Shown: positions 22,908-44,597 of the stretch, piece after piece
Layout of the letters: every line of letters begins with the position of its first letter
Position numbering within the stretch: position 1 is the stretch's first letter
Origin: Phycisphaerae bacterium
GTDB taxonomy: Bacteria > Planctomycetota > Phycisphaerae > JAJVII01
DNA: 64,000 nucleotides
Assembly (NCBI GenBank): GCA_022072085.1
Contig: JAJVII010000013.1
Coordinates: 1 to 64,000, forward strand
Reading direction: 5' to 3'
Position numbers and translations under genes: made by a program
Notes under the pieces: model-generated
The model's database searches: none
What the model was told of the DNA's origin: nothing
Seen by the model: the letters and a program-made list of their open reading frames with translations, nothing else

Positions 22908-25900
22908 TCAGAGCGCCCGGCCTGAGCCGCCCTGCGCGTAGATGACGTCCTGGCCGAGGTCGCCGAGGATCAGGTTCATGCCGCTGCCGACGTAGAGGGT
23001 GTCGGCGCCGGGGCCGGGGTCGACCCGGTTGTTGCCTGCCCCCGTGTCGATCGTGTCGTTGCCCTCGCCGCCCAGCAGGCGGTTGTTGCCGCCGTCGCCG
23101 AAGATCAGGTCGTCGCCGCCCGCGCCGTCGATCAGGTCGTCTCCGCCGCCGCCGTGCAGTTCGTCGTTCAGGTGGCTGCCGGTCAGCGCGTCGGCGTAGT
23201 CGCTGCCGATCGCCACGCGGATGTTGACCAGCGTATCGGTGTCGCCCCAGCCGTCGGTGGCCAGGCCGGCCTCGAGGTCGACGCTGACGGCAGCCGGGTC
23301 GGTGCTGTAATCGGCTGCGCCGCGGCTGCCGTTGCCGATCAGCGTGTCGTCGCCGGCGCCGCCGCGCAGGCGGTCGTCGCCGCCGTTGCCGTCAAGCAGG
23401 TCGTCGCCCGCACCGCCGGCCAGCACGTTGGCCGAACCGTCGCCGCGGATCGTGTCGGCGTGCGACGAGCCGGTGACGTTCTCGGTGCTCTCGTAGCGGT
23501 CCATGCCGCCGAAGCCGTTGTCCCAGGCGACGCGGCGGGCGAGATTCACGTCCACCCCCGCGGGGGCCGCGGAGTAGTCGATCGTGTCCGACCCGCCCGC
23601 CCCGTCGTAGCGGTGGTCGCCGGCGCCGGCGATGAACCGGTCGTCGAAGGCCGACCCGACGATGATCTCGAAGCCGTCGATCGCGTCGCCGCTGCCGGCG
23701 CCGCCGTTGGCCGGCCCGATGCCGTCCAGCGCCGTCCCGCCGTTGACGTCGATCACAACGCCGGCCGTCGAGCTGCTGTACTCGACCGTATTGCGGCCGC
23801 TGCCACCGGTCAGCACGTCGGCCCCGCCGTCGCCGCGGATCGCGTCGTCGCCGCCGCGCCCGTCGATCGTGTCGGCGCCGTCGCCGCCGGCCAGGAAGTT
23901 GGCCGCGTCGTCGCCATAGAGCCGGTCGTCGTGGGCCGAGCCGATCGCGCCGTTGATGTCGGCCAGCGTGTCGTGCCCGCCGAAGCCGTCGTCGGCCGAC
24001 CCGGCCGCCAGGTCGACCGTCACGCCGGCCGGGTCGTCGGCGTAGGAGACGAGGTTGTAAGCCCGGCCCGCGCCGCCCACGCCGACCGAGCCCAGCAGCA
24101 GGTCGTCGCCCGCCCCGCCGATCAGCACGTTGCTGCCGCGGTCGCCGATCAGCGTGTCGTCGCCCGCGTCGCCGGCCAGCGTGTCGTTGCCCCAGGCGGC
24201 CAGCAGCGTGTCGTCGCCCTCGCCGCCGCGGATCGTGTCGTCTCCGCCCTCGCCCATCAGCGTGTCGCCCCCGTCGCCGCCGGCCAGCACGTTGTCCGAG
24301 TTGTCGCCGCGGATCGTGTCGTCGTGCGACGAGCCGGTGACGTTGGCGATGTTGGCCAGCCGGTCCTGCCCGCCCGTTCCGTCGTCGTCGACGCGGCTGC
24401 GGGAGAGGTCCACGCTCACGCCGGCCGGGGCGGAGGAGAGGTCCAGCGTGTTGACGCCCGCGCCGCCGTCGACCCGGTCGTTGCCGCCGGCCGAGTCGAT
24501 CGTGTCGTCGCCCGCGTCGCCGTAGAGCATGTCGTCGCCGCCGCGCCCGGCAATCGTGTCGTCACCGCCGTTGCCGTGGATCACGTTGGCCTGGTCGTCG
24601 CCGGCCAGGTCGTCGGCGTAGGCCGAGCCCTCGATGCCCTGGATATTGGCCAGCGTGTCGCTGTCGCCAAAGCCGTCAGCCGCCGTGCCCGCAGCCAGGT
24701 CGACCGTCACGCCGGCCGGATCAGCCGAGTAGTCGATCGTGTTGAATCCGCCGCCGCCGTCGATGGCGTCGTCGCCGGCGTTGCCGATGAAGATGTTGTC
24801 GCGGCCGTCGCCGGTCAGCGTGTCGTCGTCACTGCTGCCGATCACGCCCAGGACGTCGACCAGCGTGTCGTGGTCGCCGTAGCCGTCGGTGGCCTGGCCG
24901 ATGGAGAGGTTCACGGTCACGCCGGCCGGGTCGAACGAATAGTCGGCCCAGGTGAGTTGCCCGCGGCTGGCAGCCCCGATCAGCGTGTCGTCGCCCTCGC
25001 CGCCGACCAGGTGGTCGTGGCCGCGGCGGTCGCCGATCAGCGTGTCGGCCCCGCCGTCGCCGAACAGCCAGTTGTCGGCTGCCGACGAGACCAGCGTGTC
25101 GTCGCCTTCGCCGCCGTGCACGAGCCCGCCGATGGCGCTCTCGATCCAGTCGCCCTGGGCCGATCCGATGGCGTTCTCGACGTTGCGGATCGTGTCGCGC
25201 CCGCCGTAGCCGTCGTTGCGGGCCCAGCCGCGGCGCATTGATGCGACCACCGCGCCGGGCGCAGCCGAGTAGTCGGCCGTGTCGCCGCCGGCGCCGCCGT
25301 CGATGGCGTCGCGCCCGGCCCCGCCGTCGAGGCTGTCGTCGCCTCCGTCGCCGTAGAGTCGGTCGTTGCCCGTCCCGCCATGCAGTTCGTCGTCGCCCTC
25401 GCCGCCGTGCAGCGTATCGCGACCGTCGCCGCCGTCGAGCATGTCGCCGCCGTCGCCGCCGTCGAGGCTGTCATTGCCGCCCAGCCCGAAGAGCTGGTCC
25501 GCGCCGCCCATGCCGAATATTGTGTTGCCCGCGTTGTCGCCGGTCAGGCTGTCGGCCTGCTGCGAGCCGTAGATGCCCTCGACGCCGGCGATCGTGTCGT
25601 GGCCGCCGTAGCCGTCGGTGGCCGAGTGCGTGAGCAGGTTCACCGTTACGCCGGCCGGGTCGTTGCGGTAGTCGACGATGTCCGCGTCGCGTCCGCCGTC
25701 GATCGTGTCATCGCCGGCGCCGCCCTCGATCACGTCGCGCCCGCGCAGGCCCATGATCGTGTCGTCGCCGGGCCCGCCGATCAGGACGTTGTTGCGGTTG
25801 TCGCCGGTGAGCGAGTCGTCGTAGTCCGAGCCGATCGCCCCGCTGATGCCGACCAGGCTGTCATGGCCGCCCCAGCCGTCGGTGGCTGACCGCGTCAGCA

Positions 25901-25945
25901 GGTTCACGGTCACCGCGGCCGGGTCGAGCGAGTAGTCGGCCAGGC
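22908..25945 (-). repeat. C-terminal array of about ten composite RTX modules
   Basis: Each module opens with D-Y-S-x-D-P-A-G-V-T-V-[ND]-L, then A-T-D-G-[YWF]-G-G-H-D-T-L and I-x-G-x-x-G-S-x-x-[DA]-D-x-L-x-G-D. It then carries a variable number of GGxGxDxLxG nonapeptides. I count ten clear copies from about 25,940 down to the stop, lengths roughly 70-130 residues, several diverged (one reads STAGVVIDVNGGTALDG). The nonapeptide number per module varies widely, so copy number probably changes between strains. Confidence 0.8.
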
Positions 25946-28900
25946 CGGGTCCGACCAGGCGGTCATTGCCGGCCCCGCCGTCGAGTCGGTTGTCGCCGCC
26001 CTGGCCGTAGAGCGTGTCGTCGCCGGCGTCCCCGTGCAGGTCGTCGTCGCCCGCGCCGCCGTAGAGCTGGTCGGCTCCTTCGCCGCCGCGGAGGCTGTCG
26101 TTGCCGCCCTGACCCCAGATGCGGTCATTGCCGCCGCCGCCCATGATCACGTTGTCCGACGCGTTGCCGGTCAGCCGGTCGTCGAACGCTCCGCCGATGA
26201 GGTTCTCGAACACGCCGGTCAGCCGCACGACGTTGCGGGCCGCATCGACGTACTGATATTGCCCGTTGTCCAGCGCCAGGTTGAAGGCGATCGCCGAGCC
26301 GGCGCCGGAGAAGTCGACGGTGTCGATGCCGGCGGCGTCGATCAGCCAGTCGATGCTGCCAGGGGTCTCGACGAACGTGTCGTCGCCGCCGCCGGCGGTG
26401 GGGGCGGTCGCGCGGACAATGTCGGGGGTGAATGGGTCGCCGTCGGGCCCGTTCAACTGCATCAGGCCGTTGTCGCCGATGGCGATGTCGTCGCCCGCGC
26501 CGGGATCGAGGGTGTCGTTGCCGGCCCCGCCGATCAGCAGGTCGTTGCCTGCGCCGGTGGTGATGTAGTCGTCGCCGCCGGTGTCGGGGAACAGTGACCA
26601 GAACAGCTCGAGCACGCCGACGCCCTGCGAATACTGGAACTGGGCGCTGTCGCCTAAGACGACGTTGAGTCCGTCGCCGGCGTCCACGGTGTCGCCGCCG
26701 GCGCCGCCGGCGATGCGGTCGTTGCCGCCCCCGGCGGTGATGTGGTCGTCCCCGCCGTCGCCGCCGTCGGTGCTGCGGGCCAGGTGGAGCAGACCGTCGT
26801 GGAAGTAGACCTCGCCGTTGTCGCCGAAGACCAGGTTGTCGCCCTCGCCCGCGGAGATGGTGTCGCCCGGGCCGCTACCGCTGTCGCCGCCGAGAATCAC
26901 ATCGTCGGCAGCGCCTGCGATGATGGTGTCGGCGCCATCATCGGCCCCGGGGTTGGCGATCGCGATATCCAGGGTCGTGAAGTCCTCGTCGATGTCGGGG
27001 GAGGGCAGGTCGCCCGGCCGGTGCGGGCCGCCGAGCACCACGTCGAATGCCTGCGAGTCGTCGTAGACGGACGGGCGGACGAAGTAGACCTGCCCGCTGT
27101 CGCCGATCAGGACGTTGCCGCTGTCGTTGCCGACCAGCGTGTCGCCGCCGCCGTCGCCGAACAGGAACGCCCGCAGCGTCGTGCCCGAGGCGTCCAGCGT
27201 GTCGTCGTCCTCCTGGCCGCGGACCAGCAGCAGCACGCCGAGGGAGGCGGCCGCCGTCACGGTCACCTCGTCGCTGCCCGCCCCGGCGAACAGCGAGGTC
27301 GCCGTCCGCTCGAACGGCACGCCCATCGCGACGCCGTCGTCCAGGAGGCTGGCGACCGTAATCGCGTCGGCCCCGGCGCCGGCGTAGATGCAGATGCCGC
27401 TGCCGAACAGGCCGATGTTGCCGAGCGCCAGCGTCCAGACGCCCTGGCCGCTGAAGTCGCCGCCGGTCGCAGCGTAGTCGATCTCGGCCGGGGCCAGGCC
27501 GACGATCGCGCTGCTGGTGATCGTCACGCCGGTGTCGGGGTCAGGGTCGTTGTGATCGCTGACAGCCAGGCTGTTGTGCCCCGCGCCGGCCTCGATGTGC
27601 AGCGTGCCGGTGACATAGTCCAGCGTGCCGCCGGGCCGGGCGCCCGCGTCGGCGTGCAGGATCGTGTCGTGCAGGTCGGCCAGGTCGGCGCCGCCGGCCG
27701 GCGGGGCGTAGCTGTCCAGCGCCGCCAGGTTGGCGCCGCTGGAGACGTAGATCAGGTCGTCGCCCGGGCCTGCGTCCAGGAACGTATGGGCCGACGTGCC
27801 GCGGACGTTGAAGCGGTCGTTGCCGCTGCCCAGGTCCAGGTTGAAGGTGTCGATGCCGTAGTACTCGATGCCGACGGCCATGCCCAGGCCGGTCAGCAGG
27901 CTCTCGGTCAGCGTGCCGTCGTTGTCAGCGGTGTCGGCGATGTCAGAGGCATTGAGCGTGTCCGACCCGCCGCCGCCCACCAGCAGCAGGCCGCCGGTGA
28001 TGTCGTTCAGCGTGCCCTGAGTGCCGTCGAACGCCGTCGGGCCGGTGCTGGTCAGCTCGACCGTCGAGGCGACGTTGAGGACGTCGTCGCCCGCGCGGCC
28101 GAAGACGGCGGCCCGGCCGGTCAGCGTCGCCGCCACGATGGGAATGTTCATCGTGTCGCTGCCGCCGCCGAGGTAGATGCCCAGTGCCTGGATGCCCAGG
28201 TAGTCGATGCCCTGGGTCATGCCCAGCCCGCGGATGTGCGTGTCGGTCAGCAGGCCCTGGTTGTCGGCGGTGTCGGAGGTGTCGAACAGCAGCAGCGTGT
28301 TGACCCCGAAGCCGCCGTCGACGCGGATGGGCCCGTTAAGCTGGTTGCCGTCCAGGTCGTTGAGGTTCGCGGGCACGGGCAGGCCCAGCAGCGTGGCCGC
28401 CGGGTCGGACGGGCCGGCGGCGTAGAGGTTCAGCGTCGGGCCGGAGGAGGTGAAGGTCAGCCGCGTCACGCCGTCGCCGCCGGTGAACAGGCTCACGTCG
28501 ACCAGGCCCGCGTCCAGGCCGGCTGCCGTCAGGGCGTCGTCCACGGCGGCGTTCAGATCGTCGACGAGCTGGGCCTGCGTGGTGTTGGTCGTGTTGGCGG
28601 GCAGGGCGACGGTCAGCGGGTCGTAGCCGCCGACCTCCAGCAGGAACGAGGCGGCGTCGGGGTGCCGGCCGTCGGCGCTGGCGAGCGGGCCGGCGAACAC
28701 GACGCTGTCGATCTGCCCGGGCTCGTAGGCTGCCTGATCGACGCCGAATCGGAAGATGTCGTCGCCGCCCTGGCCGAGGATCTGGACGGAGGAGTCAGCC
28801 GGCGTGCTCTGGACGTTGACCTGGTCGTCTCCGCCGCGGAGGCGGAGGGTCATGACCTCCACGCCGCTGTCGGCGCCGCCGGTGCCGTAGGTGATCGTGC

Positions 28901-31900
28901 GGGTGTCGCTCTCGGGCTGGTCGGCGCGGCGGACGGTGATGGCCTGGTTGGTCAGGCCGACGATGTCGGCCTGCTGCGAGCCGTCCGCGAGCAACTGGTC
29001 GACGTTCCAGGTGTAGCCGGTGTCGTGCGGGCCGATGTCGCCAAGCTGGAGCGTGGCCAGGATGTCGGCGATGCCCAGGTCGGCGGCGTGGGTGTCGGCG
29101 TCGCCGTAGATCGCGATCAGGGAGTTGTCGGTGCTGACGAACTGGAGCTTGCCGCCGGCGAACGAGGCCGCGACATGATAGGGAGCCAGGGCGGCGTTGA
29201 TGTCAGCCAGCAGGTTGGCCAGCGTGCCGGCCGGCGCGGAGGCCTGGTTGCCCGCGTCCTTGGTGATGGTCACCTTCTGGGCGTCGCCATCCTCGACGCG
29301 GAGCCAGAAGCTGGCGTCGGCGGACAGGAGCTGTATGGCGTTCTCTGCCGTTACGACCGGCGAAAGCGGGATGGCCCGCGGGTCGCCCAGGAAGAAGCGG
29401 TAGGTGTCGTTGCCGTTTCCGCCGTCCAGGAGGGTCTGGAAGAACAGGTCAGGGATCGTGTCGTTGTTGGTGTCGGCGTTCAGCTCGCTGGCGCTGATCA
29501 GGAACAGGTCGTCGCCCGAGCCGGTGGTGATGTTCTCGACCCGCAGGCCGTCGGCCAGTCCGCCCAGGGCGGTCACGCTGTTGACCCCGTCGGTGACGTT
29601 CGTGCCGTGGACGTCCATCGTGACGACCAGGCCGACGGTGACCGCGGACATGTCGATGGCGTCGTGCTGGCCGTCGTCGCGGGTCTCGGTGATCTGATCG
29701 ACGCCCCAGCCGTCGGCAAAGAGGTAGGTGTCGTCCCCGCCCTGGCCGAAGAGCTGGTCGTTGCCGGTCCCGCCGATGAGCCGGTCGGCCCCGCCGCCGC
29801 CGTGGAGGTCGTCGTTGCCCGCGCCGCCGTCGAGGGTGTCAGCCGACCCGCCGCCGTAGAGGTGGTCGTTGCCCAGTTCGCCGTAGAGGGAGTTGACGCC
29901 CGCGCCGCCGCGGAGGGTGTCGCTGCCGGCGCCGCCGTGGATTTCGACCGGCAGGGCGGCACTGGCCAGGCCGGACAGGTTGAACGTGTCATTGAAATCG
30001 CTGCCGTAGCCGACGATGCCGGCGACGCCCTGGGCCAGCAGGCTGGAGATCGAGAAGGCGTTGCTCGCGCCGAAACCCGAAACGGTCAGCGTGTCGCCGC
30101 TGCTGGAGATGGTGTAGCTGACCGGCCCGTCGGCGTCGGAGGTGTCGCCCTCGATGCGGGCATAGGCGAGGGGGCCGGTGTTCAGCCGCAGGACCTTCTG
30201 CGGCGTTGGGTTGCCGAAGATGGCCGGGAGGGTCGTCACCTCGGCCAACACCGGGTCGATGGCTGGGATCAGGCCGGCGTAGCCCAGCAGGTCGCTCAGC
30301 GAGAGGGTGAGGTTGAAGTGCGGGTCGAAGCCCAGGTCCGACGCGCTGATGCTGGCGCCGACGAGCGTGCCGCCGAAGTCGAATCCGCCGTGGACGTTGA
30401 GCGTCGGGTCGAAGATCTCGATCAGGTTCTGTGGCTGCGCGAAGTCGTCGGTGACGTAGAAGATCTCGTTCAGCCGCAGCCTGCCGTCGTTGTTGGGGTC
30501 GCGGATGTCCAGCCCCAGGCTCATCCCGGCGTTGATGCTGGCGTGGGCCTCGAACAGGGTGATCGAGGGGATGCAGCCGACCAGGGGGATGCAGATGCGC
30601 GGTGTGCGGATGGGCCCGGCCTGGGCGGAGGCGGAGAAGTCGAAAGAGAAGCTCATGCCCGCGCCCGGGCCTGAGTGGATGTAGAAGCCGTCGAGCAGGC
30701 TGGTCGGGTCGGGCGTCGCGCCGGCGCGGAGGGCTGAGACCATACGCTGAAGGCCGGTGGAGTCGTAGACGATGCTGAAGTCGATGTTCAGGGCGGCCCG
30801 CAGGTCGATGCCGGAACCGAAATTCAGAGTGTAGCCGCCGATGTCCAGACTGAAGGGGATCTTGTAGTCGGTCTGGGCGTGGATCTGCGGCAGGCTGAAA
30901 CTGAAGATGTCGAAGGGCTGGCCGGTCAGCCAGTCGAAAATCGAGCTGAAGCTGAGCAGATCGACCTTGAAGCCCCCGCCGGAGGGCAGGCCGGCGATGT
31001 CGAGGTTGTCGCTGTAGGGGGCCAGCGCGGCGAAGCCCTGGACGTTCATGTAGCCGGCGATGGTGGACACGTCCAGGCCGGTGAAGCCCAGGGGGTTGCT
31101 GTCGGTGCCGCCGCTGGCTTCGTAGAGCTTTGTCAGCAGGTTGAACAGACCCTGGACCGCCGACCCGATGGTGTTGCCGATGACGATGGGGATGGGTCGC
31201 TTGAGGCGTGGGAAGTAGAGCGGGCTGGACTGGTCCATGTTCAATTCCCAGCCGCCGAGGTTCAGCGTGCCGGTGCTGCCGAGGGTGCCGATGAGGTTGT
31301 TCAGGCCGCGGACCACCCCCACCGCGTCCTGGAAGGTGTTGAGGGGGTTGAAGCCGCCGAAGGCATAGGTCAGCAGATCGTCGACGGAGACGTGGATGCC
31401 CAGGTTGCTCAGGCCGGGGATGTCCTGGCTCGTCCAGCCGGCCACCGCGCCGGTGCCGTCGCCGACGAAGTTGATGACCGGGTCCAGGGCCGTGTTGATG
31501 CCGTAGGCCACCGGGCCGATGACGTTGTTGAGCAGGTCGCCGACGCTGAGGCGGATATTGTCGAACTCAAACCGCTGGATGAACTGGGCCAGCAGGGAAC
31601 GCTGGGACGAGGGGGTGGCGGCCCCGCCCTTGCCGGCGGCGGTCTTGATCCAGTCGATCGGGCCCTTGCCGGTGCCCAGAAAGATCAGCTCGGCCAGGCT
31701 GGGCAGGCCGGCGTCGATCTTCAAATCGTACTGAAGCGACGGCAGGCCCAGGACGCCGGGGACGGCGCCGAAGGCGGCCTCGATGTTGTTGGTAATGGAG
31801 TTGAGGTTGGTGTCGACGGCCAGGCGGATCTTGCCGTCGATGCTGACGTCAGGCACGAGCACCTGGAAGATGTTGGTGGCGCCCAGGAACTCGCCGAGCA

Positions 31901-34900
31901 GAAGGCGGTCGTCGCCGCCGATGCCCAGCGGAGAGTCGACGAAGTCGATGCCGAAGCCGAGCGCCAGGTGCGTGTGCTCCAGCGGGTCGATGCCGGAAAT
32001 CTCCAGCGTCGTGTCCAGGTCCTTTGTGCGGAAGACGAGCTTGCCGGCGCCCGCGTCGTAGAGGACGGTGACGGTCTGGTCGGCGGGCGAGTCGCCGAGA
32101 TATCCGTTGACGTCGGCCTGGACGGCGCTTACCAGCGCGCTGATGCTGGTGAGGGAGTCGTCCTTGTGCGAGAGGGCGATCGGGACGGCCCGTGCGCCGT
32201 GGGCGGTGTCGGTGACGGTGAGCATCAGGCCGGTGTCCCAGAGCACGCGGCCGTCGGTCGGGGCGGCGGCCGCGGCGATCAGGTCGTTCCTGCTCGCGTC
32301 GACGAGGCTGACGGAACTGGTCTGACCGTTGCGGAAGCCCAGGCCGATGGACCGCTGGTCATCCGTCTGGCCGTTAGCCAGGCCCCATTGCGGCCCGCCG
32401 GAGGTGACGACCTGGATGTTCGTGGCGGTGGGGTCGGAGCTGGTCAGCACGATGGTCGGGTTGAGCAGGTCGCTCAGGTTCAGGGTGAGCAGCATCTGGA
32501 GCGGCGTGCCGTGATCGGACGTCACGCCGAACAGGTAGGCGTTGGCGTCCAGCAGGAAGCTGAGGATGTTCTGGCCGCCGTGGAGCTCGTAGTTGATGTG
32601 GTAGTCGTCGATGACGGTGCTGTTGTTGTGGCCGACCAGCAGGTGGAAGTCGGCGGTGTAGTCGTGATAGAAGGCGGCGATGAAATCCTGGGCGATGTCG
32701 CTGGTGTCCAGAGAAATCACGCCCTGCAAGCCGGTGATGCTGGCCGCGATCTTCGTGCCGTCGGAGAAGTTCGATTGGGCCAGGCCGCTGCCCAGCGTGC
32801 CGGTCAGCCCCGGCGTGGTCGCGTCGAACGAGAAGTTCAGCTCGGGCGTGTCGACGCCGTGCGGGTCGGTGGCGTCGGTGCGGTAGTAGAAGCCGTCGCT
32901 CAGGCTGACGCCGAAGTTGTAGTAGAAGTCCCAGTTGAAGACCAGTTGCACACCGTCGCCGGAAACGTTGAAGCCGAACCCCGGGAAGTTGCCGCTCAGG
33001 CCCGGCAGCGACGCCAGGCCGATGCCCAGGTCGAACGGCTGGCTGGCCAGCGTGACGCTCTGGCCGAGGTGCATGTTGTATTCGACGTAGTCGTTGCTCT
33101 GCTCAGTGGCGTTCACGTCGGCCGGGTCGATCGTCGCCCCCTGGCTGCCGCTCCTGCCGGTCGGCAGGTCAAGCAGCAGGTCAAGCCCGTTGGGCGAATT
33201 CGGCCCGTAGACGTCGAACAGGATGGTCTGGATCTGATCGACCATGCGCTGACTGTCGTCCTGCACCGCCAGCAGCAGTTCGGTCCGCACCCGGCCGCGG
33301 GCCTGCTTCAGCCGCGTGATGAAGTCGAGGATCGGCTGGACGATGCGGTCGCCGACCAGTGGCACCTGGCCGATCGCCTGGAAGACCGTCCGCGACACGT
33401 TCTCGATCTGCCGCAGCATCGCGTCGAAGCCGTTCAGCAGCACGTTGGGGTCGCGCAGCAGCGTGTCCAGCGGGTCGGGGTCGTCGGGATTCGCCGTGAC
33501 CAGGCTGTCCAGGTCCGGCACGGGGCTGGTGAACGCGACCGAACCGGCTGCCCCCTGCGTGGCCGCCAGCAGGTCGGCGATCATGATGCCCAGCGTTCCC
33601 AACGACGGATCAGCGGCCGTCTGGAGGGCCGCCGAGAACGCCGCCTTGCCCGACAGCGTCGAGGTCAGTTGCGCGTCCAGGTCGCCGGCCAGTACGGTGT
33701 CCAGGTCCAGCGCCGCCCCGCTGGGGCTGTCGAAGGCGATATCGTAAGCCGCCGGCCCGGCGCCGGACGCGTCGGTCACCGACACCTGCGCGCCGTTCAG
33801 CAGCAGCGTCGCCGGTCCGTAGAGGGCGTTCAGGCTGTCGTTGGAGCTGGACAGCGACACCTCCAGGTGCAGCGTCGAGCTGTCGTGGATGTGCGTCACC
33901 GGTTCATCGGCCGGCTGGCTGACGGCCGAGAAGTCCAGGTCCATGCCGACGTTCACCGTGGCCGTGGCGTTGACCGGCAGCGTCACCGAATCGGTCACGT
34001 TCAGCGTCCGCGGGTCAGCCAGCGGCGGCGTCGACGCCAGTGCGTTCAGGCTCGCGACGTCGACGGCATACGGCACAGCCGTCGGCGTGGCGCTGATGAA
34101 GCTCAGGTCGATCAGCACCTTGTCGCCGGCGACGGTGAATATCTGCGTCGTCGTGTTCAGCCCCTGGCCGACCAGCGCGTCCAGATCCTGGAGCGTCGCC
34201 GGCGGCGCCTGCTTGCTCAGCGTGTCCACCAGGCTGTTGAAGCTGGTGGTGAAGTTGTTCAGCTGCGACGCGCTCAGCCCGATCAGCGGCAGCACCGACT
34301 GGAGCAGGCTCACGTCGTCCAGCACGCCCACCATGAACAGCCCCGCCTCGTGCAGCACGCTGAACGCCTGGGCGTAGGTCAGATGGTCGGCCACCGTCTG
34401 TGCGGGGCTGGTCACCGAGACGGCCAGCGGCGTGAGCGACACGGTGTTCTCGCGGGCCGTCAGGTCGGTGGAGGTGACCACGACGTCGAACTGCGTGGAA
34501 CTGCCGCCGACAAGGCCGGGCAGGTTCATCACCAGTTGCAGGTCCGTCCCGGCCGCCCGCGCGATCGCGTCGATATCGTCGTCGCTCGCGGGGCTGCCCG
34601 GCAGCGTCTGCGTCAGCCCGGCGGCCGTCGGTATCGTGACGGCGTCGGCCGAGTAGCTCAACTCCGGCGTGCGGACATGACCGTCGCCCGGCTGCCAGTC
34701 GGTGTCGACGACGGTCGTGTCCAGCGACAGGTAGCCGCGGGCGTGGGCGTCGGCGATCTCGGTCGCCAGGATGTTGTAGACGCCCGTCGCGGCGGCGTCG
34801 GAGACTTCCAGCTTCACCGCCGCGTTGACCTGGCTGCCTTCGACCAGGTACATCGGGCCGACCGCGTCGGCGACGCCGGCCTCGGTGTTCATCAGCCCCA

Positions 34901-37835
34901 GGTCGGCCTGGGCTGCCCCAGCCGGATCGGTCAGCAGGCGCAGCATCACGTCGACGGCCCCGGGGCCCAGCGTCAGTTTGATCCGCTCGATCGGGCTGTC
35001 CGTGTCGTAACTGGTGTAGCGGGTGACCACGACTGCATCGCCCGGCAGGCCCGCGTGGAGCAGGGCATCGGAGACCGCCGCATTCATGTCCGCGACCAGG
35101 TCGTCCAGGCTGGCGTTGTCGGCCAGCGTATCGGCGGCGTTGGCCGACCCGTCGGCCTTGAGCTGGTCGCCGACCACGACGTGCACCGCAGGCCGGTTGC
35201 CGAGAAGCAGGTCGAAGGCCAGCACGTTGCCGGCCACCTGCCCGTTCGATGGCACTGTCACCTGGTCGTTGGACAGGACGAACGCGTGGGCGGCCGTCGC
35301 GAAGCGGCCGTCGGCCATGCCCAACTCGGTGAAGATCGGGTCAGCCAGCGCGGCGTCGATCTCGGCCTGCGTCGGCCCGACGCCCAGGTGCGTCGGCGGC
35401 AGGTGGGCCGCGATCGCCAGCCGCTGGTAGATGCTGTTGGAGTTCAGCGAAAGCTTCAGCCGTCCGCCGGTGATCGAGACGGCCACCTCGTCGCCCGGCA
35501 GGTCGGCTGACACCAGGGCCGCGCTGACGGCTGAGTCGATCAGCGCCGCCAGGCTGGCCGGGTCGGTGGCTGCGCTGGTGTCAACAAGCACCTCGACCGG
35601 GGCCAGGTTGCCCAGCACCAGATCGAAATGTAGCTGGTCGCCGGTCACCTGGCCGTCCGCCGGCAGCGTCACGTCGGGATCGGACAGAATCGCTGCCTGG
35701 GCCGACGGGTCGGGCTTGAGCTTTACGCCGTAATCGACGGCCAGCCCGACGTTGAGCGTCAGCGTCACGTTCGCGTCGATCGCCACCTGGCTGAGCGAGT
35801 CCAGCGAGAGGTTGAAAGAGTAGGGCAGGTCGATCGGCGGGCCGTCCTGGCTGGCCGCGACGTGGAACAGCAACTCGCCGGTGGCCGGGTCGTAGTCGGC
35901 TGACAGCCCCGCTCCGCCGGCCGCGACCAGTTCCTGGATCGTGTCAAACCCGGTGAAGGTGTGATCGGCCTCGGTCGCGAACGCCGACCGGAAGGCGTTG
36001 CCGAATCCGTAGTCGCTGCTGCGCGGGTCGGCGCCGTCGGCCACGTCGATCAGGTGGTTGAATCCGAACAGGTTGTTCAGGTTCACGCCGTCGACCAGCG
36101 GCAGCAGGCCGGAGTAGGTCGATGAGTCGCCCAGGTGGTCCAGGAACGTCGCGATCCGCGGCAGGTCGGCAGTCAGGTCCGCCCCGGTCAGGCTCGCGAA
36201 GGCCAGCAGGTCCGACGAGATGAACGTCGGCGGGCCCTCCAGCCGCGTCACGTCCGGCCCGCCGGAAACCAGCGGGCCGGTCTGGATCATCATGTCGGCC
36301 AGGTCGATGGCGGCGGACCCGACCAGGATGTTCCCGTCGATCGAGGTGGCAGTCGTGAGGCCCGCCTTCACCGCCGCCGGGAGCGTCGCGTAGGCCGACC
36401 CCGACAGCGCCGAGCCGGTCGAGTCGCCGTTGGCGTCCAGCGTCTCGGCCACCGTCGCATCCAGCAGGATCGTGCCGCCGGTGACGTGCGTGCCCAGCAC
36501 GCCGACGTTCAGGTCGAAGTCCGCCAGCGCCGCCGGCGAGCCGGCGTTGTCGATCTTCAGGTGCGCGGTGTAGCCGGACACCTGGTCGATGGCCGTGTCC
36601 GGGCCCGTGCTCGGACCGGCGGTGTCATCCAGCGCGCCGAACGAGAAGTCCAGCCCCAGGTCGGCCTGGATCGTCAGGTTCGGCGGCGAGCCGGCAATTG
36701 CCAGGCCCAGCTCCTCCGCGTCGGCCCCGAGGAACAACGGCGTCGTCACCGACGCGCTGGTCCCCAGCGTCAGACCGGTGAAGGTCACCTGCGTCGGCTG
36801 GCCGACCAGTTGCACCGCCGCGCCCGGCGTGCCGGTGAACGAGAGCGTCACCCCGCCGCTCGTGGAACTGAACGCGTTCAGGAAGTCGACGACCGTCTGC
36901 GTGGTGGCCGACCCGTTGGTCGCGATCGTGCTGTCATACTGGCTGACCAGGCTTTCCAGCGCCGTGGTGACTCCGAACAGATCGTCGATGCTCAGAGTGG
37001 TGAACGGGATCTGGAGCGACAGCTTGGTCAGGTTGGCCAGCTTGTTGGGCAGGTCGTCGATCGCCGCCTTCAATGCCGCCGGGTCGACCAGGTCTGACAG
37101 CGGCGTGGCCGTGTCGGTGACCACGACCGATTCGGTGTTCGAGAATCCGGCCGACGCCCCGCCGGTGAAGCCGGCAGCCGATCCGCTGTGGGAGGTGATG
37201 GCCTTGCCCTGCGCGTCGAGCGTCAGGCTGTCGCCCGTTCCGCCGCCGCCATCAACCGTCAGGGCCTGGTTGCCCGTGAGATTCACCTCGATATCGTCGT
37301 CGCCGGAACCGGAGTTGATCTGCCAGGCCTGTGAACCGGTGAAGGCGCTGACGATGACATGGTCTGCCCCGCCCTGGCTGTTGAGGGTGAAGGTCGCATC
37401 GAAGGCCGCGTCCAGGGCGTTGACGGTGATCGTGTCGGCGCCGCCGGGGGTGTTGACGACCAGCCCGGCCCCGGCGCCGGCAGGGTTGCTGAAAACGTTG
37501 GCGGACCCGCCGTCTATCGTCACGTGGAACTTCCCGGCGGCGGCATCGTTCTCGATGACGATTGCGTGCGCGCCGTTGGACGCATCGGTGATGTCGAGGG
37601 TCAGGACGTTGCCCAGCGTGGAACCGACGATGGCGGCCGACAGCAGCAGGCGCGGCTCAAGCAGGTCCAGCCGCGGCGCGACGCGACGCACGGCCGCGAG
37701 CCGGCGGCGGGATCGGACAGCCGGCCGCCGAACCGCCGGCTTCGGGCGCCTCCCTCGCCTTGCAGCGAACTGGCGGGTGAGGACTCGCCGATAGAGATGC
37801 CTCAGCCAGTTCAGTGCCCGGGAGTCGGCTCGCAT
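22908..37835 (-). CDS. Giant LEPR-XLL / RTX-type calcium-binding repeat protein
   Basis: A 4,975-residue protein, uninterrupted over 14.9 kb. The frame is open from 37940, but ATG 37835 is preferred for its AAGGA ribosome site 8 bases upstream. The first 50 residues are strongly basic (RRGRRPKPAVRRP...) and lead into LDLLEPRLLLSAA, the LEPR-XLL signature of giant planctomycete and related surface proteins. Then come a beta-rich GGADxI-type domain (about 70-220) and a very long middle of repeated beta modules with a recurring pattern of about 100 residues (a G-x-L-x-F-x-L strand, then LVADLNAAL-type helix and GGRLxL strand). A first short RTX block lies around residue 2,640-2,710. The last 1,000 residues are dense GGxGxDxLxG nonapeptides. 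RTX repeats bind Ca2+ and fold outside the cell. It is likely an adhesin or matrix protein; the secretion route is not evident here. Confidence 0.85.
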   Translation of the reverse strand: MRADSRALNWLRHLYRRVLTRQFAARRGRRPKPAVRRPAVRSRRRLAAVRRVAPRLDLLEPRLLLSAAIVGSTLGNVLTLDITDASNGAHAIVIENDAAAGKFHVTIDGGSANVFSNPAGAGAGLVVNTPGGADTITVNALDAAFDATFTLNSQGGADHVIVSAFTGSQAWQINSGSGDDDIEVNLTGNQALTVDGGGGTGDSLTLDAQGKAITSHSGSAAGFTGGASAGFSNTESVVVTDTATPLSDLVDPAALKAAIDDLPNKLANLTKLSLQIPFTTLSIDDLFGVTTALESLVSQYDSTIATNGSATTQTVVDFLNAFSSTSGGVTLSFTGTPGAAVQLVGQPTQVTFTGLTLGTSASVTTPLFLGADAEELGLAIAGSPPNLTIQADLGLDFSFGALDDTAGPSTGPDTAIDQVSGYTAHLKIDNAGSPAALADFDLNVGVLGTHVTGGTILLDATVAETLDANGDSTGSALSGSAYATLPAAVKAGLTTATSIDGNILVGSAAIDLADMMIQTGPLVSGGPDVTRLEGPPTFISSDLLAFASLTGADLTADLPRIATFLDHLGDSSTYSGLLPLVDGVNLNNLFGFNHLIDVADGADPRSSDYGFGNAFRSAFATEADHTFTGFDTIQELVAAGGAGLSADYDPATGELLFHVAASQDGPPIDLPYSFNLSLDSLSQVAIDANVTLTLNVGLAVDYGVKLKPDPSAQAAILSDPDVTLPADGQVTGDQLHFDLVLGNLAPVEVLVDTSAATDPASLAALIDSAVSAALVSADLPGDEVAVSITGGRLKLSLNSNSIYQRLAIAAHLPPTHLGVGPTQAEIDAALADPIFTELGMADGRFATAAHAFVLSNDQVTVPSNGQVAGNVLAFDLLLGNRPAVHVVVGDQLKADGSANAADTLADNASLDDLVADMNAAVSDALLHAGLPGDAVVVTRYTSYDTDSPIERIKLTLGPGAVDVMLRLLTDPAGAAQADLGLMNTEAGVADAVGPMYLVEGSQVNAAVKLEVSDAAATGVYNILATEIADAHARGYLSLDTTVVDTDWQPGDGHVRTPELSYSADAVTIPTAAGLTQTLPGSPASDDDIDAIARAAGTDLQLVMNLPGLVGGSSTQFDVVVTSTDLTARENTVSLTPLAVSVTSPAQTVADHLTYAQAFSVLHEAGLFMVGVLDDVSLLQSVLPLIGLSASQLNNFTTSFNSLVDTLSKQAPPATLQDLDALVGQGLNTTTQIFTVAGDKVLIDLSFISATPTAVPYAVDVASLNALASTPPLADPRTLNVTDSVTLPVNATATVNVGMDLDFSAVSQPADEPVTHIHDSSTLHLEVSLSSSNDSLNALYGPATLLLNGAQVSVTDASGAGPAAYDIAFDSPSGAALDLDTVLAGDLDAQLTSTLSGKAAFSAALQTAADPSLGTLGIMIADLLAATQGAAGSVAFTSPVPDLDSLVTANPDDPDPLDTLLRDPNVLLNGFDAMLRQIENVSRTVFQAIGQVPLVGDRIVQPILDFITRLKQARGRVRTELLLAVQDDSQRMVDQIQTILFDVYGPNSPNGLDLLLDLPTGRSGSQGATIDPADVNATEQSNDYVEYNMHLGQSVTLASQPFDLGIGLASLPGLSGNFPGFGFNVSGDGVQLVFNWDFYYNFGVSLSDGFYYRTDATDPHGVDTPELNFSFDATTPGLTGTLGSGLAQSNFSDGTKIAASITGLQGVISLDTSDIAQDFIAAFYHDYTADFHLLVGHNNSTVIDDYHINYELHGGQNILSFLLDANAYLFGVTSDHGTPLQMLLTLNLSDLLNPTIVLTSSDPTATNIQVVTSGGPQWGLANGQTDDQRSIGLGFRNGQTSSVSLVDASRNDLIAAAAAPTDGRVLWDTGLMLTVTDTAHGARAVPIALSHKDDSLTSISALVSAVQADVNGYLGDSPADQTVTVLYDAGAGKLVFRTKDLDTTLEISGIDPLEHTHLALGFGIDFVDSPLGIGGDDRLLLGEFLGATNIFQVLVPDVSIDGKIRLAVDTNLNSITNNIEAAFGAVPGVLGLPSLQYDLKIDAGLPSLAELIFLGTGKGPIDWIKTAAGKGGAATPSSQRSLLAQFIQRFEFDNIRLSVGDLLNNVIGPVAYGINTALDPVINFVGDGTGAVAGWTSQDIPGLSNLGIHVSVDDLLTYAFGGFNPLNTFQDAVGVVRGLNNLIGTLGSTGTLNLGGWELNMDQSSPLYFPRLKRPIPIVIGNTIGSAVQGLFNLLTKLYEASGGTDSNPLGFTGLDVSTIAGYMNVQGFAALAPYSDNLDIAGLPSGGGFKVDLLSFSSIFDWLTGQPFDIFSFSLPQIHAQTDYKIPFSLDIGGYTLNFGSGIDLRAALNIDFSIVYDSTGLQRMVSALRAGATPDPTSLLDGFYIHSGPGAGMSFSFDFSASAQAGPIRTPRICIPLVGCIPSITLFEAHASINAGMSLGLDIRDPNNDGRLRLNEIFYVTDDFAQPQNLIEIFDPTLNVHGGFDFGGTLVGASISASDLGFDPHFNLTLSLSDLLGYAGLIPAIDPVLAEVTTLPAIFGNPTPQKVLRLNTGPLAYARIEGDTSDADGPVSYTISSSGDTLTVSGFGASNAFSISSLLAQGVAGIVGYGSDFNDTFNLSGLASAALPVEIHGGAGSDTLRGGAGVNSLYGELGNDHLYGGGSADTLDGGAGNDDLHGGGGADRLIGGTGNDQLFGQGGDDTYLFADGWGVDQITETRDDGQHDAIDMSAVTVGLVVTMDVHGTNVTDGVNSVTALGGLADGLRVENITTGSGDDLFLISASELNADTNNDTIPDLFFQTLLDGGNGNDTYRFFLGDPRAIPLSPVVTAENAIQLLSADASFWLRVEDGDAQKVTITKDAGNQASAPAGTLANLLADINAALAPYHVAASFAGGKLQFVSTDNSLIAIYGDADTHAADLGIADILATLQLGDIGPHDTGYTWNVDQLLADGSQQADIVGLTNQAITVRRADQPESDTRTITYGTGGADSGVEVMTLRLRGGDDQVNVQSTPADSSVQILGQGGDDIFRFGVDQAAYEPGQIDSVVFAGPLASADGRHPDAASFLLEVGGYDPLTVALPANTTNTTQAQLVDDLNAAVDDALTAAGLDAGLVDVSLFTGGDGVTRLTFTSSGPTLNLYAAGPSDPAATLLGLPVPANLNDLDGNQLNGPIRVDGGFGVNTLLLFDTSDTADNQGLLTDTHIRGLGMTQGIDYLGIQALGIYLGGGSDTMNIPIVAATLTGRAAVFGRAGDDVLNVASTVELTSTGPTAFDGTQGTLNDITGGLLLVGGGGSDTLNASDIADTADNDGTLTESLLTGLGMAVGIEYYGIDTFNLDLGSGNDRFNVRGTSAHTFLDAGPGDDLIYVSSGANLAALDSYAPPAGGADLADLHDTILHADAGARPGGTLDYVTGTLHIEAGAGHNSLAVSDHNDPDPDTGVTITSSAIVGLAPAEIDYAATGGDFSGQGVWTLALGNIGLFGSGICIYAGAGADAITVASLLDDGVAMGVPFERTATSLFAGAGSDEVTVTAAASLGVLLLVRGQEDDDTLDASGTTLRAFLFGDGGGDTLVGNDSGNVLIGDSGQVYFVRPSVYDDSQAFDVVLGGPHRPGDLPSPDIDEDFTTLDIAIANPGADDGADTIIAGAADDVILGGDSGSGPGDTISAGEGDNLVFGDNGEVYFHDGLLHLARSTDGGDGGDDHITAGGGNDRIAGGAGGDTVDAGDGLNVVLGDSAQFQYSQGVGVLELFWSLFPDTGGDDYITTGAGNDLLIGGAGNDTLDPGAGDDIAIGDNGLMQLNGPDGDPFTPDIVRATAPTAGGGDDTFVETPGSIDWLIDAAGIDTVDFSGAGSAIAFNLALDNGQYQYVDAARNVVRLTGVFENLIGGAFDDRLTGNASDNVIMGGGGNDRIWGQGGNDSLRGGEGADQLYGGAGDDDLHGDAGDDTLYGQGGDNRLDGGAGNDRLVGPGLADYSLDPAAVTVNLLTRSATDGWGGHDSLVGISGAIGSDYDDSLTGDNRNNVLIGGPGDDTIMGLRGRDVIEGGAGDDTIDGGRDADIVDYRNDPAGVTVNLLTHSATDGYGGHDTIAGVEGIYGSQQADSLTGDNAGNTIFGMGGADQLFGLGGNDSLDGGDGGDMLDGGDGRDTLHGGEGDDELHGGTGNDRLYGDGGDDSLDGGAGRDAIDGGAGGDTADYSAAPGAVVASMRRGWARNDGYGGRDTIRNVENAIGSAQGDWIESAIGGLVHGGEGDDTLVSSAADNWLFGDGGADTLIGDRRGHDHLVGGEGDDTLIGAASRGQLTWADYSFDPAGVTVNLSIGQATDGYGDHDTLVDVLGVIGSSDDDTLTGDGRDNIFIGNAGDDAIDGGGGFNTIDYSADPAGVTVDLAAGTAADGFGDSDTLANIQGIEGSAYADDLAGDDQANVIHGNGGDDTIAGRGGDDMLYGDAGDDTIDSAGGNDRVDGGAGVNTLDLSSAPAGVSVDLSRSRVDDDGTGGQDRLANIANVTGSSHDDTIRGDNSDNVLAGGDGGDTLMGEGGDDTIRGGEGDDTLLAAWGNDTLAGDAGDDTLIGDRGSNVLIGGAGDDLLLGSVGVGGAGRAYNLVSYADDPAGVTVDLAAGSADDGFGGHDTLADINGAIGSAHDDRLYGDDAANFLAGGDGADTIDGRGGDDAIRGDGGADVLTGGSGRNTVEYSSSTAGVVIDVNGGTALDGIGPANGGAGSGDAIDGFEIIVGSAFDDRFIAGAGDHRYDGAGGSDTIDYSAAPAGVDVNLARRVAWDNGFGGMDRYESTENVTGSSHADTIRGDGSANVLAGGAGDDLLDGNGGDDRLRGGAGDDTLIGNGSRGAADYSTDPAAVSVDLEAGLATDGWGDTDTLVNIRVAIGSDYADALTGSHLNDELHGGGGDDLIDGAGGDDLIFGDGGNNRLLGGEGNDTIDTGAGNNRVDPGPGADTLYVGSGMNLILGDLGQDVIYAQGGSGRAL
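29725..29945 (-). repeat. Internal RTX nonapeptide block
   Basis: About eight consecutive GGxGxDxLxGG units (GGAGSDTLRGGAG, GGAGNDDLHGGGG, GGTGNDQLFGQGG) end in DDTYLFADGW. They form a second, separate calcium-binding beta-roll far upstream of the C-terminal array. Confidence 0.75.
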
Positions 37836-38508
37836 GGTGCTGTCCTTGCGGTCAATGGCGTAGACTAGTGCAGCGGTGTGAAGCGAAGTTGAGATGAACA
37901 CAGTCCGGTTGCGACGGCGTGGAGAATATCCGAAACGCAACCCGCAGGAGCCGGCGGGCCGGCAGGCGGTGGATGCGAAGTCCTTTCAATGGGACAGAGC
38001 TTCCGTGGCATTTGGCGCGGCTCTACACGGCGCCGATGTCGGGGGGAACGCCAACGGATCCGCGAACGGGTTCCTGGGCCACCACGCCCACGGCCTCTTC
38101 CGCAAGGCCTGACGGCGCCAGGCGACGCGGGAGCATTTCCTGCTGGGAGAATGTTAGCCGCGTCCGGCGCGAAGGCAAGGAACAGTGATTTCGTGGGCGC
38201 CGGCTGCGATGTTCCACCAGGCAGCGATCCAGAACCGGTCCGGTGGTACGCCGGCGACTGGGGCCGGACTGGCAAGAAGCTTGAGATGGGCAGGAGCTTT
38301 ATGCGATTCAGCAAGGTCGAGGCCCGACTCTGGTTGTGATCGACGAGTCGAGCCGCCGCGTGCCGGCGGCGCGGCTCATCGACAACTACCGGGTCGCTGC
38401 CAAGGGAAGTGCCCCCGCCAAGAAGTCCGATTGCCGTCCCGCCGCCAAGTGCCCCTTGCTTAAAGCGGCCGCCGGGTCGATGAATCTTGTCCCCTCGCGA
38501 ACAGCCAA
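37836..38508. other. Intergenic region, no supported gene
   Basis: About 670 bases between the giant gene and the broken GH123-like gene, both on the minus strand. Open frames here (for example a 215-codon minus-strand frame at 37865-38512) are Pro/Arg/Ser-rich with no start context and look like chance frames in GC-rich DNA. The promoter of the giant gene is expected here; none could be pinned down. Confidence 0.5.
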
Positions 38509-39675
38509 TCACCGGGCGGCCTGGCGGACCTCGCCGGCCAGCCGGTAGAGTCTGGCGGCCGATTCCCGCCAGCCCGCCCCTGGGGTCGCCCGCAGCGGCG
38601 CGTTGATGCCGAAGCCGTGGCTGAACTGGACGACGCGGCAGAAGTCGGCGCGGGCATCGAGCAGTTCCTGGCAGCGGTTCGCCAGTCCGCCGCCGATCTT
38701 CCCTCCGACCAGGGCCTCCTCAATGACGATGCGGGCCTCGCATTCCTGCACGCCTTGGCGCATGACGACGGTGTCCAGCGAGTTCACCGGCCCGCTCCTG
38801 CCCGGGTAGGCCAACGCCAGGTAATGCGGATTCCGCTGACCGGCGGTCGACTCGGCGATCGCACCGGCCGCCGCGTCGGCCGAGAGCAGCAGATCGCGGA
38901 ATTCGATGTGAGCCCAGATGTCGTCACGGCCTCCCTCCCAGGCCCGCCCCGCAGCTTCCATGTGGAAATCGCTGCGGTGGATCTGGACGGCCAGCACGTT
39001 GACGCCCTTGCGCAGCAGCTTCGTGGGAATCTCCATCGGTCCCAGCGAGCGGTTGCGAAGGGCCTCGGCCGCCTGCCAGGCCTGCTTGTCCTTGATGTGG
39101 ATGAGTTTGCCAGCGGCGTCGACGTAGGCCTCAGGCGGATAGAGCGCGCCGGGCGTCGTCGCCGAGAGAGGGCCGTCGGGCAGGTCCCTGCGGGCAATCT
39201 CGACGCCGTTGAGGTAGACGACGATCCCGCCTCGATAGCCGGCCGACAGCGTCAGCGACGTGACTCCGCCCGGATCGTTCACCGTGAATCTGCCTCGCAG
39301 GCTCAACAGCCCGCGGATACCGTTGTAGCCGTACCAGAACCGGCTTCGCCCGCCGACGGGACCGGGGGAGCGGCACCAGTCCGAGTCGTCAAAATCGGTT
39401 CGAGCCCAGTCTGCCGCCGGCCCGGGCGTTTCGATACGCCCGAATCCGCCGAGGCCCTGTTACCCGGCCAGCAGCAGCGGCTCGGTCGCGTCGGGCTTCT
39501 GCTCACGGACCAGCTCGACGGGCACGACTGCGTCGCGGCAGGCGGCATGGACTCGCCAGTAGCTGCCGGTCTGAAGGATCGGCTCCCTCGGCTGGGCGGC
39601 TGCCGCCGACCCTCCGGCCCCGATAGCCGTCGATGTCGCCAGCACGCCGGCAACGATCAGCGGAAGAATTCGCAC
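38509..39675 (-). pseudogene. Broken GH123-like gene: in-frame stop plus large internal deletion
   Basis: One reading frame runs from GTG 39675 (GAGGAG ribosome site 6 bases upstream, signal peptide VRILPLIVAGVLATSTA) to TGA at 38509, interrupted only by TAA at 39462-39460. Before the stop it ends ATEPLLLAG; after it the frame resumes with GFGRIETPG and AADWARTDFDDSDW, the latter matching ADWARPEFDDSDW in the 901-residue protein at 41892-44597. Further matches are VVYLNGVEIARRDLP and RKGVNVLAVQI. At about the point equivalent to residue 312 of that protein it jumps to the equivalent of about 799 (LALAYPGRSGP, then GVQECEARIVIEEAL). Thus the GH domain core, about 485 residues, is missing. It could be a pseudogene or a short non-catalytic relative whose stop is read through; the former is likelier. 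Confidence 0.75.
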
Positions 39676-40050
39676 GGCAAGCTCCTCGTTACGGGTTTGG
39701 GAATGTCCTGCTTGTGTTCCAAACAACATGCGCCCCCGCATGTTCCTCCCCCGGCGTTGCCCGCCGGTCAAGGCGCCCGCCGACGGCGTGGTGGGCTGCG
39801 CGGACGCCGCCGAAGGCGGCAGGTCTGGGCCCGCCGGTTGGTCGACGGTCCGCCGGCCAACGCCTACGGCTACGCAGCCAGCCCCGTGCTGTACGGCGAC
39901 CCTGCTATCCAGCTTGTCGATCGGGGGCCCCGCTTCCGCAAGGCAGAATTATGAATCCCAGGCGCCCGTGGCCTCGCAAACGGCCCGTCGTGGCCGCGGC
40001 GCTGCTACGGCCCGAAGATCGCCGGAGGCGTCCACCGGTACTGGCAGCTC
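39676..40050. other. Intergenic region with a doubtful coding remnant
   Basis: About 375 bases, mostly low-meaning GC-rich sequence. On the + strand, codons from 39841 to the TGA ending at 39954 read ANAYGYAASPVLYGDPAIQL and then RGPRFRKAEL. The L-Y-G-D-P-A ending recalls the C-termini of some secreted peptidase C25-like or CHAT proteins, but the stretch has no upstream domain and may be chance. Confidence 0.25.
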
Positions 40051-41891: not shown

Positions 41892-44597
41892 TCACTGACC
41901 GGAATCCCCGGTTGCCTCGGCCACTTCGGCGGCGGCCTGGAAGAGCGCCCGCGAACGCCGCTGCCAGCCGGTGTCATTTTCCTCCAGGCTGTAGATCACG
42001 GAGTTGCCCTGAAAGAAGCTGGTGTCGCGGAAGTCATCGGCCAGGACCTTTCTGACCTTGGCGGCCAGGTTCGCGGGCGCCAGGCCGCGTTCCAGGGCCT
42101 GCTCCAGGAAGATGCGCGCCTCGGTGTCCTGGACGCCTTCCCGCAGCGCCTCGAATCGCGCGCTGCTCTGGGCGCCGTCCTTGCCCGGCCAAAGCACGAA
42201 GAGCGTCCCGCGGCCGACCATGTATCTTGGGATGACCATGTCGCAGTAATGGGTCGCGGCCCACTCGTCGGCTCCCACCCGAGCGAAGCCGTTGCGGCCC
42301 ATGGCCAGGGCCCGTCCGGGCATCGCCCGGAAGGCGAAGGGGAACGAACTGGTGTGCAGCGCAAAGACGTTCCCGCCGACCCGCGGGTTGAGCAGGACCG
42401 TGGGGTTGCTGCTCTTCCAGCCCTGGTCGGTGCGGAAGCCGCCCATGCAGCGAATGTCGACGGCCATCTGGTAATACTTCCGGTCGCTGGTTGCGCCGCT
42501 GCCGTACCCGGTCTGGTGCGGTCCGCACGTCCAGAAGATGCCCGGCGCCGCCGCGGCCAGCACTTCCTTCAGGTCGGGGTCGTACTCCTGCTCCTCCGGC
42601 GCACCCCAGTACATGGCCTTGCCCGGGCCCTTCGCCTTCATGTGCGCCGCCAGCGCCGTGGCGAAGGCTCGCCAGGCGGCCCTGCCCGCGGGGTCATTAG
42701 CCCACATGGGGTGCAACGCGCCGCCGATTCGGACCTGCGGCGGAGGCATGGGGCTAAGGCGGCTCTTCATGTTGTGCATGACCACGAACTGAACCACTCG
42801 GGGATTCCCGCAGTGCTTGATGGCCAGGTCCAGATACCTGTCCAGCACGGTGAAGTCGAAGTCCAGGCTGCCGTCCCCCTTGCGCAGCCAGCGGATGGGC
42901 GAATCCTCACCGTTGCCGAACTCGCTGCGGGCCAGCACCGGGACGCTCAGCCAGGCGTTTCCGATCCGCCCGAGTTGCCGGAAGTTCGCCTCCAGCAGCT
43001 CGAAGTGCCGGTCAGACCAGGGCTGCACGCCGTACTGCCTGGCCACGGCGTATGGATTCTCTTCGCAACCCACCAGGGTCTGAAAGTCCCGAGGCGCGGG
43101 CAGCTTCCAGTCGATGACTTCGGCCTCGACGGGCAGTTTCACCGGCTCCATCCCCTGGGCGCGGACCTCCACGGCGCCTCGATACGTCCCGGCTGGGGCG
43201 TCGGCCGGCACACTGAGCAGCAGCCTTGCAGGATAGGAGCAGTTCGCGGGGATGTTCGCCGGCGCCTCGGCGGTGAGCTGGTCGAAGAAGAATGGCCCGC
43301 TTCCCGCGAAGCCGGCCAGTCGGGAAAGCTCGGCGTTGCTCGGGAAGCTGGCGCCCACCCCGCGCTCGTCCCCCAGCTCCGCAAGCGTCCATTTGGCAAG
43401 GGGGTAGGGCACGGTGTAGAGGATCTGCATGGCGCCGGCCGCGAGGCGCCCGGCCCCGCCCGCCTGGACCAGTTCGCCCGCGCTGACCTGGAGTCCCGCC
43501 AGCGGCCGGTCGGACCCGACAACGATCTGGGCGGAGTAGCTGCCGTTGCGAGCGCCTACGAAGCGCACGGTCCCGGCCGGCTCCCCCGGCGGCAGGAAGG
43601 TCGTCGAAAGCAGGCGGTGGTGCGGGTCATCCACCCACACCCGAGGCCCGGCCGGCCGGCGCAGGGCCGATGTCACCCCGTGCCCGTTTGTGCTGAGCAC
43701 CACTTTGGCCAGCCGCGCGTGCGGGAACGGTCGCTGCGGACCGTTCCAGTTCGGCTGCCGTGGGGCAGTCAGCGCTACCGGGTGATAGGCGCTGGCCCTT
43801 ATCTCCACGGCCAGCACGTTGACGCCCTTGACCAGCACAGAGGCGGGGATGGCCACGGGCCCCAGTTTCCGGTCCGCCGGCACGGGGGTCTCCTTCGGGG
43901 CGCTCTGGCCCGGCCCGCCGCTGGTATACTCTGCGACCGCGTAGGCGGAACCGGGATAGCCGTCAGCGCAGGTGTCGGGCGAGAGGTCGCCGGCCGGCAG
44001 ATGACCGCGGGCGATCTCATTCCCGTTGACCAGCACGCGGACGCCGCCGGCGTATGCCAGCCGGACGGTGAGCGTCCCTGCCGCCGCCGGGTCCTCGACG
44101 ACGAACCGCGTGCGGTAGAAGGCCGCCAGGAGCATCATGTCGACGGACTCGTCGAACTGGCCGTAACTCATGTTGGTCAGACGCAGAGCGGCAGAGCCCT
44201 GAAAGGGGTGATCAAGCCGGGCCCAATCGCTGTCATCGAACTCCGGCCTCGCCCAGTCCGCCGGGGGATGAGGCGTGAGCGGAGGATTGAAGGACCGCGG
44301 CCCACGGTAGAGCCAGACGGCATGGTCCCGCCAGTCGCCGGCCTTGATCCCGTGCGCGGCCATGTAGCCTTCGGTGTCCTTCTGAAGGCTGTCCAGAACC
44401 TTGGCCCCCACCGTGCCGGCGCCGGCTCGTTTCAGTTCCACCGCCGAGATCCGGCTGGGGCCGAAACAGTAATAGCGGCGCCAGAGAGTCTGCTCGTTGA
44501 GAACATCCTCGGCGCGGACCAGGGACGCCCCCGGGCCGGCCGTCGCCGACAGGGCGGCGGGCAGCAAGGCCCACCAGGTGATCGTGCCGCATCTCAT
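41892..44597 (-). CDS. GH123-like (DUF4091) secreted protein with altered active-site motif
   Basis: A 901-residue exported protein with a signal peptide ending near LVRAED (about 30). Residues about 90-280 form one or two galactose-binding-like beta-sandwiches (ADWARPEFDDSDWARLDHP; VRVLVNGNEIARG; GVNVLAVEIRAS). Residues about 320-480 match the GH123 N-terminal region and 480-870 its catalytic barrel, ending with the DUF4091 signature (LFVLWPGKDG ... REGVQDTEARIFLEQAL). Known GH123 enzymes are beta-N-acetylgalactosaminidases using an adjacent Asp-Glu pair, usually in a D-E-P context. Here the aligned motif reads W664-G665-A666-P667-EEQEYDP, so the pair seems replaced; activity may be lost or changed. 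First gene of a pair with the FG-GAP protein. ATG 44597 is the only start that keeps the signal. Confidence 0.7.
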   Translation of the reverse strand: MRCGTITWWALLPAALSATAGPGASLVRAEDVLNEQTLWRRYYCFGPSRISAVELKRAGAGTVGAKVLDSLQKDTEGYMAAHGIKAGDWRDHAVWLYRGPRSFNPPLTPHPPADWARPEFDDSDWARLDHPFQGSAALRLTNMSYGQFDESVDMMLLAAFYRTRFVVEDPAAAGTLTVRLAYAGGVRVLVNGNEIARGHLPAGDLSPDTCADGYPGSAYAVAEYTSGGPGQSAPKETPVPADRKLGPVAIPASVLVKGVNVLAVEIRASAYHPVALTAPRQPNWNGPQRPFPHARLAKVVLSTNGHGVTSALRRPAGPRVWVDDPHHRLLSTTFLPPGEPAGTVRFVGARNGSYSAQIVVGSDRPLAGLQVSAGELVQAGGAGRLAAGAMQILYTVPYPLAKWTLAELGDERGVGASFPSNAELSRLAGFAGSGPFFFDQLTAEAPANIPANCSYPARLLLSVPADAPAGTYRGAVEVRAQGMEPVKLPVEAEVIDWKLPAPRDFQTLVGCEENPYAVARQYGVQPWSDRHFELLEANFRQLGRIGNAWLSVPVLARSEFGNGEDSPIRWLRKGDGSLDFDFTVLDRYLDLAIKHCGNPRVVQFVVMHNMKSRLSPMPPPQVRIGGALHPMWANDPAGRAAWRAFATALAAHMKAKGPGKAMYWGAPEEQEYDPDLKEVLAAAAPGIFWTCGPHQTGYGSGATSDRKYYQMAVDIRCMGGFRTDQGWKSSNPTVLLNPRVGGNVFALHTSSFPFAFRAMPGRALAMGRNGFARVGADEWAATHYCDMVIPRYMVGRGTLFVLWPGKDGAQSSARFEALREGVQDTEARIFLEQALERGLAPANLAAKVRKVLADDFRDTSFFQGNSVIYSLEENDTGWQRRSRALFQAAAEVAEATGDSGQ

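Follow-up and report, generated by a model that had tools for sequence, protein, structure and literature searches.

A very probable recently inactivated GH123-type gene with an internal deletion and an in-frame stop in a Phycisphaerae bacterium

Background

Two short open reading frames on the minus strand of a 64,000-nucleotide stretch of DNA from a Phycisphaerae bacterium (GCA_022072085.1, contig JAJVII010000013.1, positions 1 to 64,000; hereafter the window) lie in the same frame, separated by a single TAA codon, and raise the question of whether they are the remains of one GH123-type gene and whether that gene can still be of use to its host. The host genome (5.49 Mb in 72 contigs, 97% complete) carries 26 other GH123_cat genes, none of which has a stop inside any match in a profile search, and the number of GH123_cat matches per genome ranges from 3 to 59 across the sixteen Planctomycetota genomes searched. 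These are very large expansions (26 genes in 5.5 Mb in the host, G000; 59 matches in G695) of a family that has few characterised members. Here we report that the locus is very probably a recently inactivated member of this expanded, secreted GH123-type family, carrying an in-frame deletion of ~1.45 kb and the TAA.

Methods

Features were read from the sequence and from alignments of the conceptual read-through protein (the remnant) to GH123 proteins. The remnant was searched against Pfam, and its N-terminal and C-terminal parts were placed separately on a GH123 reference tree. Intact relatives were sought in 397 members of the class and 392 of the phylum (partly overlapping sets), plus named genomes; those searched include one member of the host's family and none of its genus, which limits sensitivity. 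Neutral simulations of decay assumed indel rates of 5-10% of substitutions.

Results

Gene structure and reading frame

The features of the locus, with the evidence for each, are as follows.

38509..39675, minus strand: GH123-type pseudogene, the whole remnant from GTG to TGA (sequence reading, alignments to GH123 proteins)
39682..39687, minus strand: Shine-Dalgarno-like GAGGAG, 6 nt upstream of the GTG (sequence)
39463..39675, minus strand: 71 codons before the stop, comprising a signal-peptide-like stretch and the start of the N-terminal region of GH123 relatives (own match to GH123 proteins)
39460..39462, minus strand: in-frame TAA, lying in a linker of low conservation (sequence, alignment)
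38860..39453, minus strand: accessory N-terminal jelly-roll module, residues 75-272, kept (conserved columns, confident fold, structural matches)
38856..38860, no strand: internal-deletion junction, approximate; 479-507 residues, ~1.45 kb, gone in frame (alignments)
38512..38856, minus strand: C-end kept, consisting of the DUF4091 region and terminal helix (alignments, conserved columns)
38752-38805, minus strand: altered SxRxE...REG motif region inside the C-end (alignment)
41892..44597, minus strand: neighbouring intact GH123 paralog, not the source of the remnant (PF13320 E 1e-24; tree)

Sequence and ORF reading place the remnant on the minus strand (39675-38509) in one frame with a single in-frame TAA: the GTG start (39675-39673) is followed by 71 codons up to the TAA (39462-39460) and by 316 further codons up to a TGA (38511-38509). 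Taken alone, the 71 residues ahead of the stop give a match to GH123 protein L104 (47% over 57 aa, E 1e-9), so that the two ORFs constitute one gene, and alignments of the remnant to GH123 proteins, far above chance (best E 7e-53), continue across the TAA. The claim of the initial annotation that the ORFs are same-frame halves split at 39460-39462 is thus confirmed. A pseudogene is recognised by a disabling lesion with homology to intact genes on either side of it, which is the case here for GH123 genes. Automatic gene callers would give two short hypothetical genes at this position, for which one pseudogene is the proper label. The good ribosome site and signal-peptide-like start described earlier are likewise present, with GAGGAG six bases ahead of the GTG; the translation then thought possible would cover only the 71 codons, mostly signal peptide, unless the TAA were read through, of which there is no sign. 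Elsewhere in the window (22908-37940, minus strand) lies a 5010-residue open frame with many GGxGxD-type repeats, like those of RTX calcium-binding surface proteins.

Internal deletion and lost domains

In alignments to GH123 paralogs, residues 1-272 of the remnant correspond to the N-terminal part and residues 274-388 to the C-end, and the middle is gone. Compared with the protein at 41892-44597, 484 residues are missing (485 had been claimed); the figure is 507 for the closest relative and 479 for L076. What is missing corresponds, in the closest relative, to the PF22680 beta-sandwich (333-443; E 2e-9) and the PF13320 barrel (505-667 and beyond). A Pfam search of the read-through protein gave no match, and hence neither the PF13320 barrel nor the PF22680 sandwich, and a PF13320 search of the genome found no barrel at 38.5-39.7 kb of contig C15; PF13320 is carried by the paralogs and closest relatives of the remnant. 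Loss of the whole catalytic barrel, as first proposed, therefore stands, with its extent understated, since the GH123 beta-sandwich is deleted as well. The junction is flanked by just short, chance-like repeats.

Retained domains

The initial annotation had both an N-terminal sandwich and the DUF4091 end retained; the latter is indeed kept, and the former proves to be an accessory jelly-roll domain that lies ahead of the GH123 sandwich and is not PF22680 itself. This front module retains 51 of 54 conserved columns, and its AlphaFold prediction has a pLDDT of about 90. AlphaFold confidence for the C-end is low, which says little because the input alignment had no C-end rows.

Conservation is weaker in the C-end, where 19 of 25 conserved columns are retained (Fisher p 0.025 against the N module). 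The YPG of DUF4091 is kept, SxRxE has both its Arg and its Glu (each 94% conserved) replaced, and the Glu of REG is also missing. R478 in the DUF4091 of NgaLy makes contact with D95 in that enzyme's N-terminal sandwich, and replacing it by Ala (R478A) caused the protein to precipitate (PMC11087588). Judged by motif spacing, the lost SxRxE Arg would be the equivalent of R478, and the sandwich domain that partners the DUF4091 Arg is deleted in the remnant. The same Arg is also absent from some intact paralogs (L078, L081 and L082). Thus, the remnant lacks the barrel, the N-terminal beta-sandwich and the SxRxE Arg by which a functional GH123 protein was defined.

Relatives and origin of the remnant

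The intact form had been proposed as something to look for in relatives; the closest relatives found, none of them a close ortholog, are full-length proteins, encoded by VGYV01000510.1 and by copies in RA.bin114. The closest one found is the GH123 protein of Planctomycetota MAG M_DeepCast_400m_m2_195 (VGYV01000510.1, L172/L144), which shares 44-49% identity with the remnant over the N module and 37% over the C-end and, unlike the remnant, has a 910-residue open frame with every domain present. The neighbour at 41892-44597, considered as the source of the remnant, is only 32% identical to it in the N part, which ranks close to last among 47 relatives, and is distant in the tree; being among the least similar copies, it is not the source. 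A hybrid of two tandem paralogs, with the N part from one and the C part from the other, was considered because the best C-end identities fall in other clades. When placed separately on the reference tree, however, both parts had the same deep branch as best or unrejected (AU 0.56 and 0.97, respectively), so that no more is needed than a single gene lineage that underwent an internal deletion. One host gene (G000:C10:109931-110413; 710-residue frame) is matched by the remnant at its C-end only and not over the N module.

An intact family of barrel-less relatives would have spoken against a pseudogene, and none consisting of N module plus C-end was found in ~850 phylum genome searches or in the 51 loci that an alignment-based search recovered from the named genomes; the remnant used alone as query in the named genomes gave no match. 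All complete relatives found have the barrel; the short N-module matches either ended with their contig, were interrupted by a stop or belonged to other protein families. L194 and L198 seemed candidates since each had matches to the two ends at close spacing, and each was explained by full-length genes with barrels; L186 is a full-length gene split by a TAG; and short proteins in G522, G619 and G691 have the accessory module alone in common with the remnant.

Broken GH123 copies like the remnant do occur in other genomes, two having been seen. In L186 (JAKLDR010000076.1, RA.bin114), one in-frame TAG at 4585-4587 splits a GH123 gene in which every domain is present, and in L205 (PMYM01000083.1) the frame breaks in the GH123 barrel, with barrel and C-end carrying on in a second ORF. 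The genome of L186 (G695) has a further TAG within a barrel match at C259:6927-7514.

State of decay

The remnant frame is otherwise open across 387 codons, and its GC3 of 0.84 compares with 0.89 in intact paralogs (range 0.78-0.95). In the neutral simulation, one stop without any indel is compatible with drift of at most roughly 0.05 substitutions per site, which indicates that inactivation was recent or that the TAA is new on an already barrel-less gene.

Discussion

Given the open frame, a GC3 within range and the 51 of 54 conserved columns, such little decay would also suit a short protein still in use. Under this explanation, the locus encodes a functional barrel-less secreted protein, acting as a free sugar-binding module, and the TAA is either an error in the consensus or a very recent mutation. 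An N module that is well conserved and predicted with high confidence to fold alone, a good ribosome site with a signal-peptide-like start, and a single disruption in 388 codons all favour it; we nonetheless consider it improbable, given that no such relative turned up in the searches described above and that DUF4091 persists in the absence of its partner domains and lacks its conserved Arg. That deletion has converted a GH123 lineage into a free, secreted module for sugar binding, produced despite or until just before the TAA, is in our view very unlikely. Readthrough or recoding of the TAA to yield the full product is extremely improbable: while the frame stays open past the stop and L186 offers a full-length GH123 gene of another genome split by a single TAG, that stop differs in codon and position, TAA is a normal terminator in 2 of 26 paralogs (the rest use TGA or TAG), and the stop of the remnant falls in a poorly conserved linker where the aligned intact copies are all free of stops.

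A fragmented draft of 72 contigs with many paralogs could also mislead, either by a misjoin across paralogs that creates a false deletion or by a wrong base that creates a false stop, the TAA being one base away from many sense codons. Such a misjoin would require a long shared word, and the 311 bases that surround the junction occur once in the genome, with matches elsewhere of only 27-54 bases at 79-96% identity, mostly in paralogs; a simple repeat-driven misjoin is therefore unlikely. As the stretch also contains no Ns and the N and C parts fit one tree branch, an assembly artefact is quite improbable, and we infer that the deletion and the stop are genuine.

The remnant is thus best read as an ordinary pseudogene of an expanded glycosidase family. 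An in-frame deletion of ~1.45 kb would have taken out the GH123 beta-sandwich and catalytic barrel and left the DUF4091 C-end fused to the accessory N-terminal module, and a base change would have created the TAA after 71 codons; either of the two events may have come first. Translation from the GTG would end at the TAA, and what is secreted once the signal has been removed would probably be a useless peptide of about 44 residues; a useful product is presumably absent. The remnant would then be a copy discarded from a GH123 family of 27, a loss in keeping with the way genes are gained and lost in the carbohydrate-degradation repertoires of Planctomycetota.

Comparison with known systems

The retained module has the same fold as the ancillary jelly-roll domains of CE20, GH2, GH35 and GH78 enzymes (Z 6-9) and a profile match to the Streptomyces alpha-L-rhamnosidase 3w5m (E 7e-10); in contrast to those ancillary domains, it is joined here to GH123 proteins. 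With the GH123/DUF4091 beta-N-acetylgalactosaminidases NgaP, BvGH123, CpNga123 and NgaLy, the remnant shares the DUF4091 C-end. Unlike these enzymes, it has neither the beta-sandwich nor the catalytic barrel with its DE motif, its DUF4091 Arg is changed, and its frame is stopped after 71 codons.
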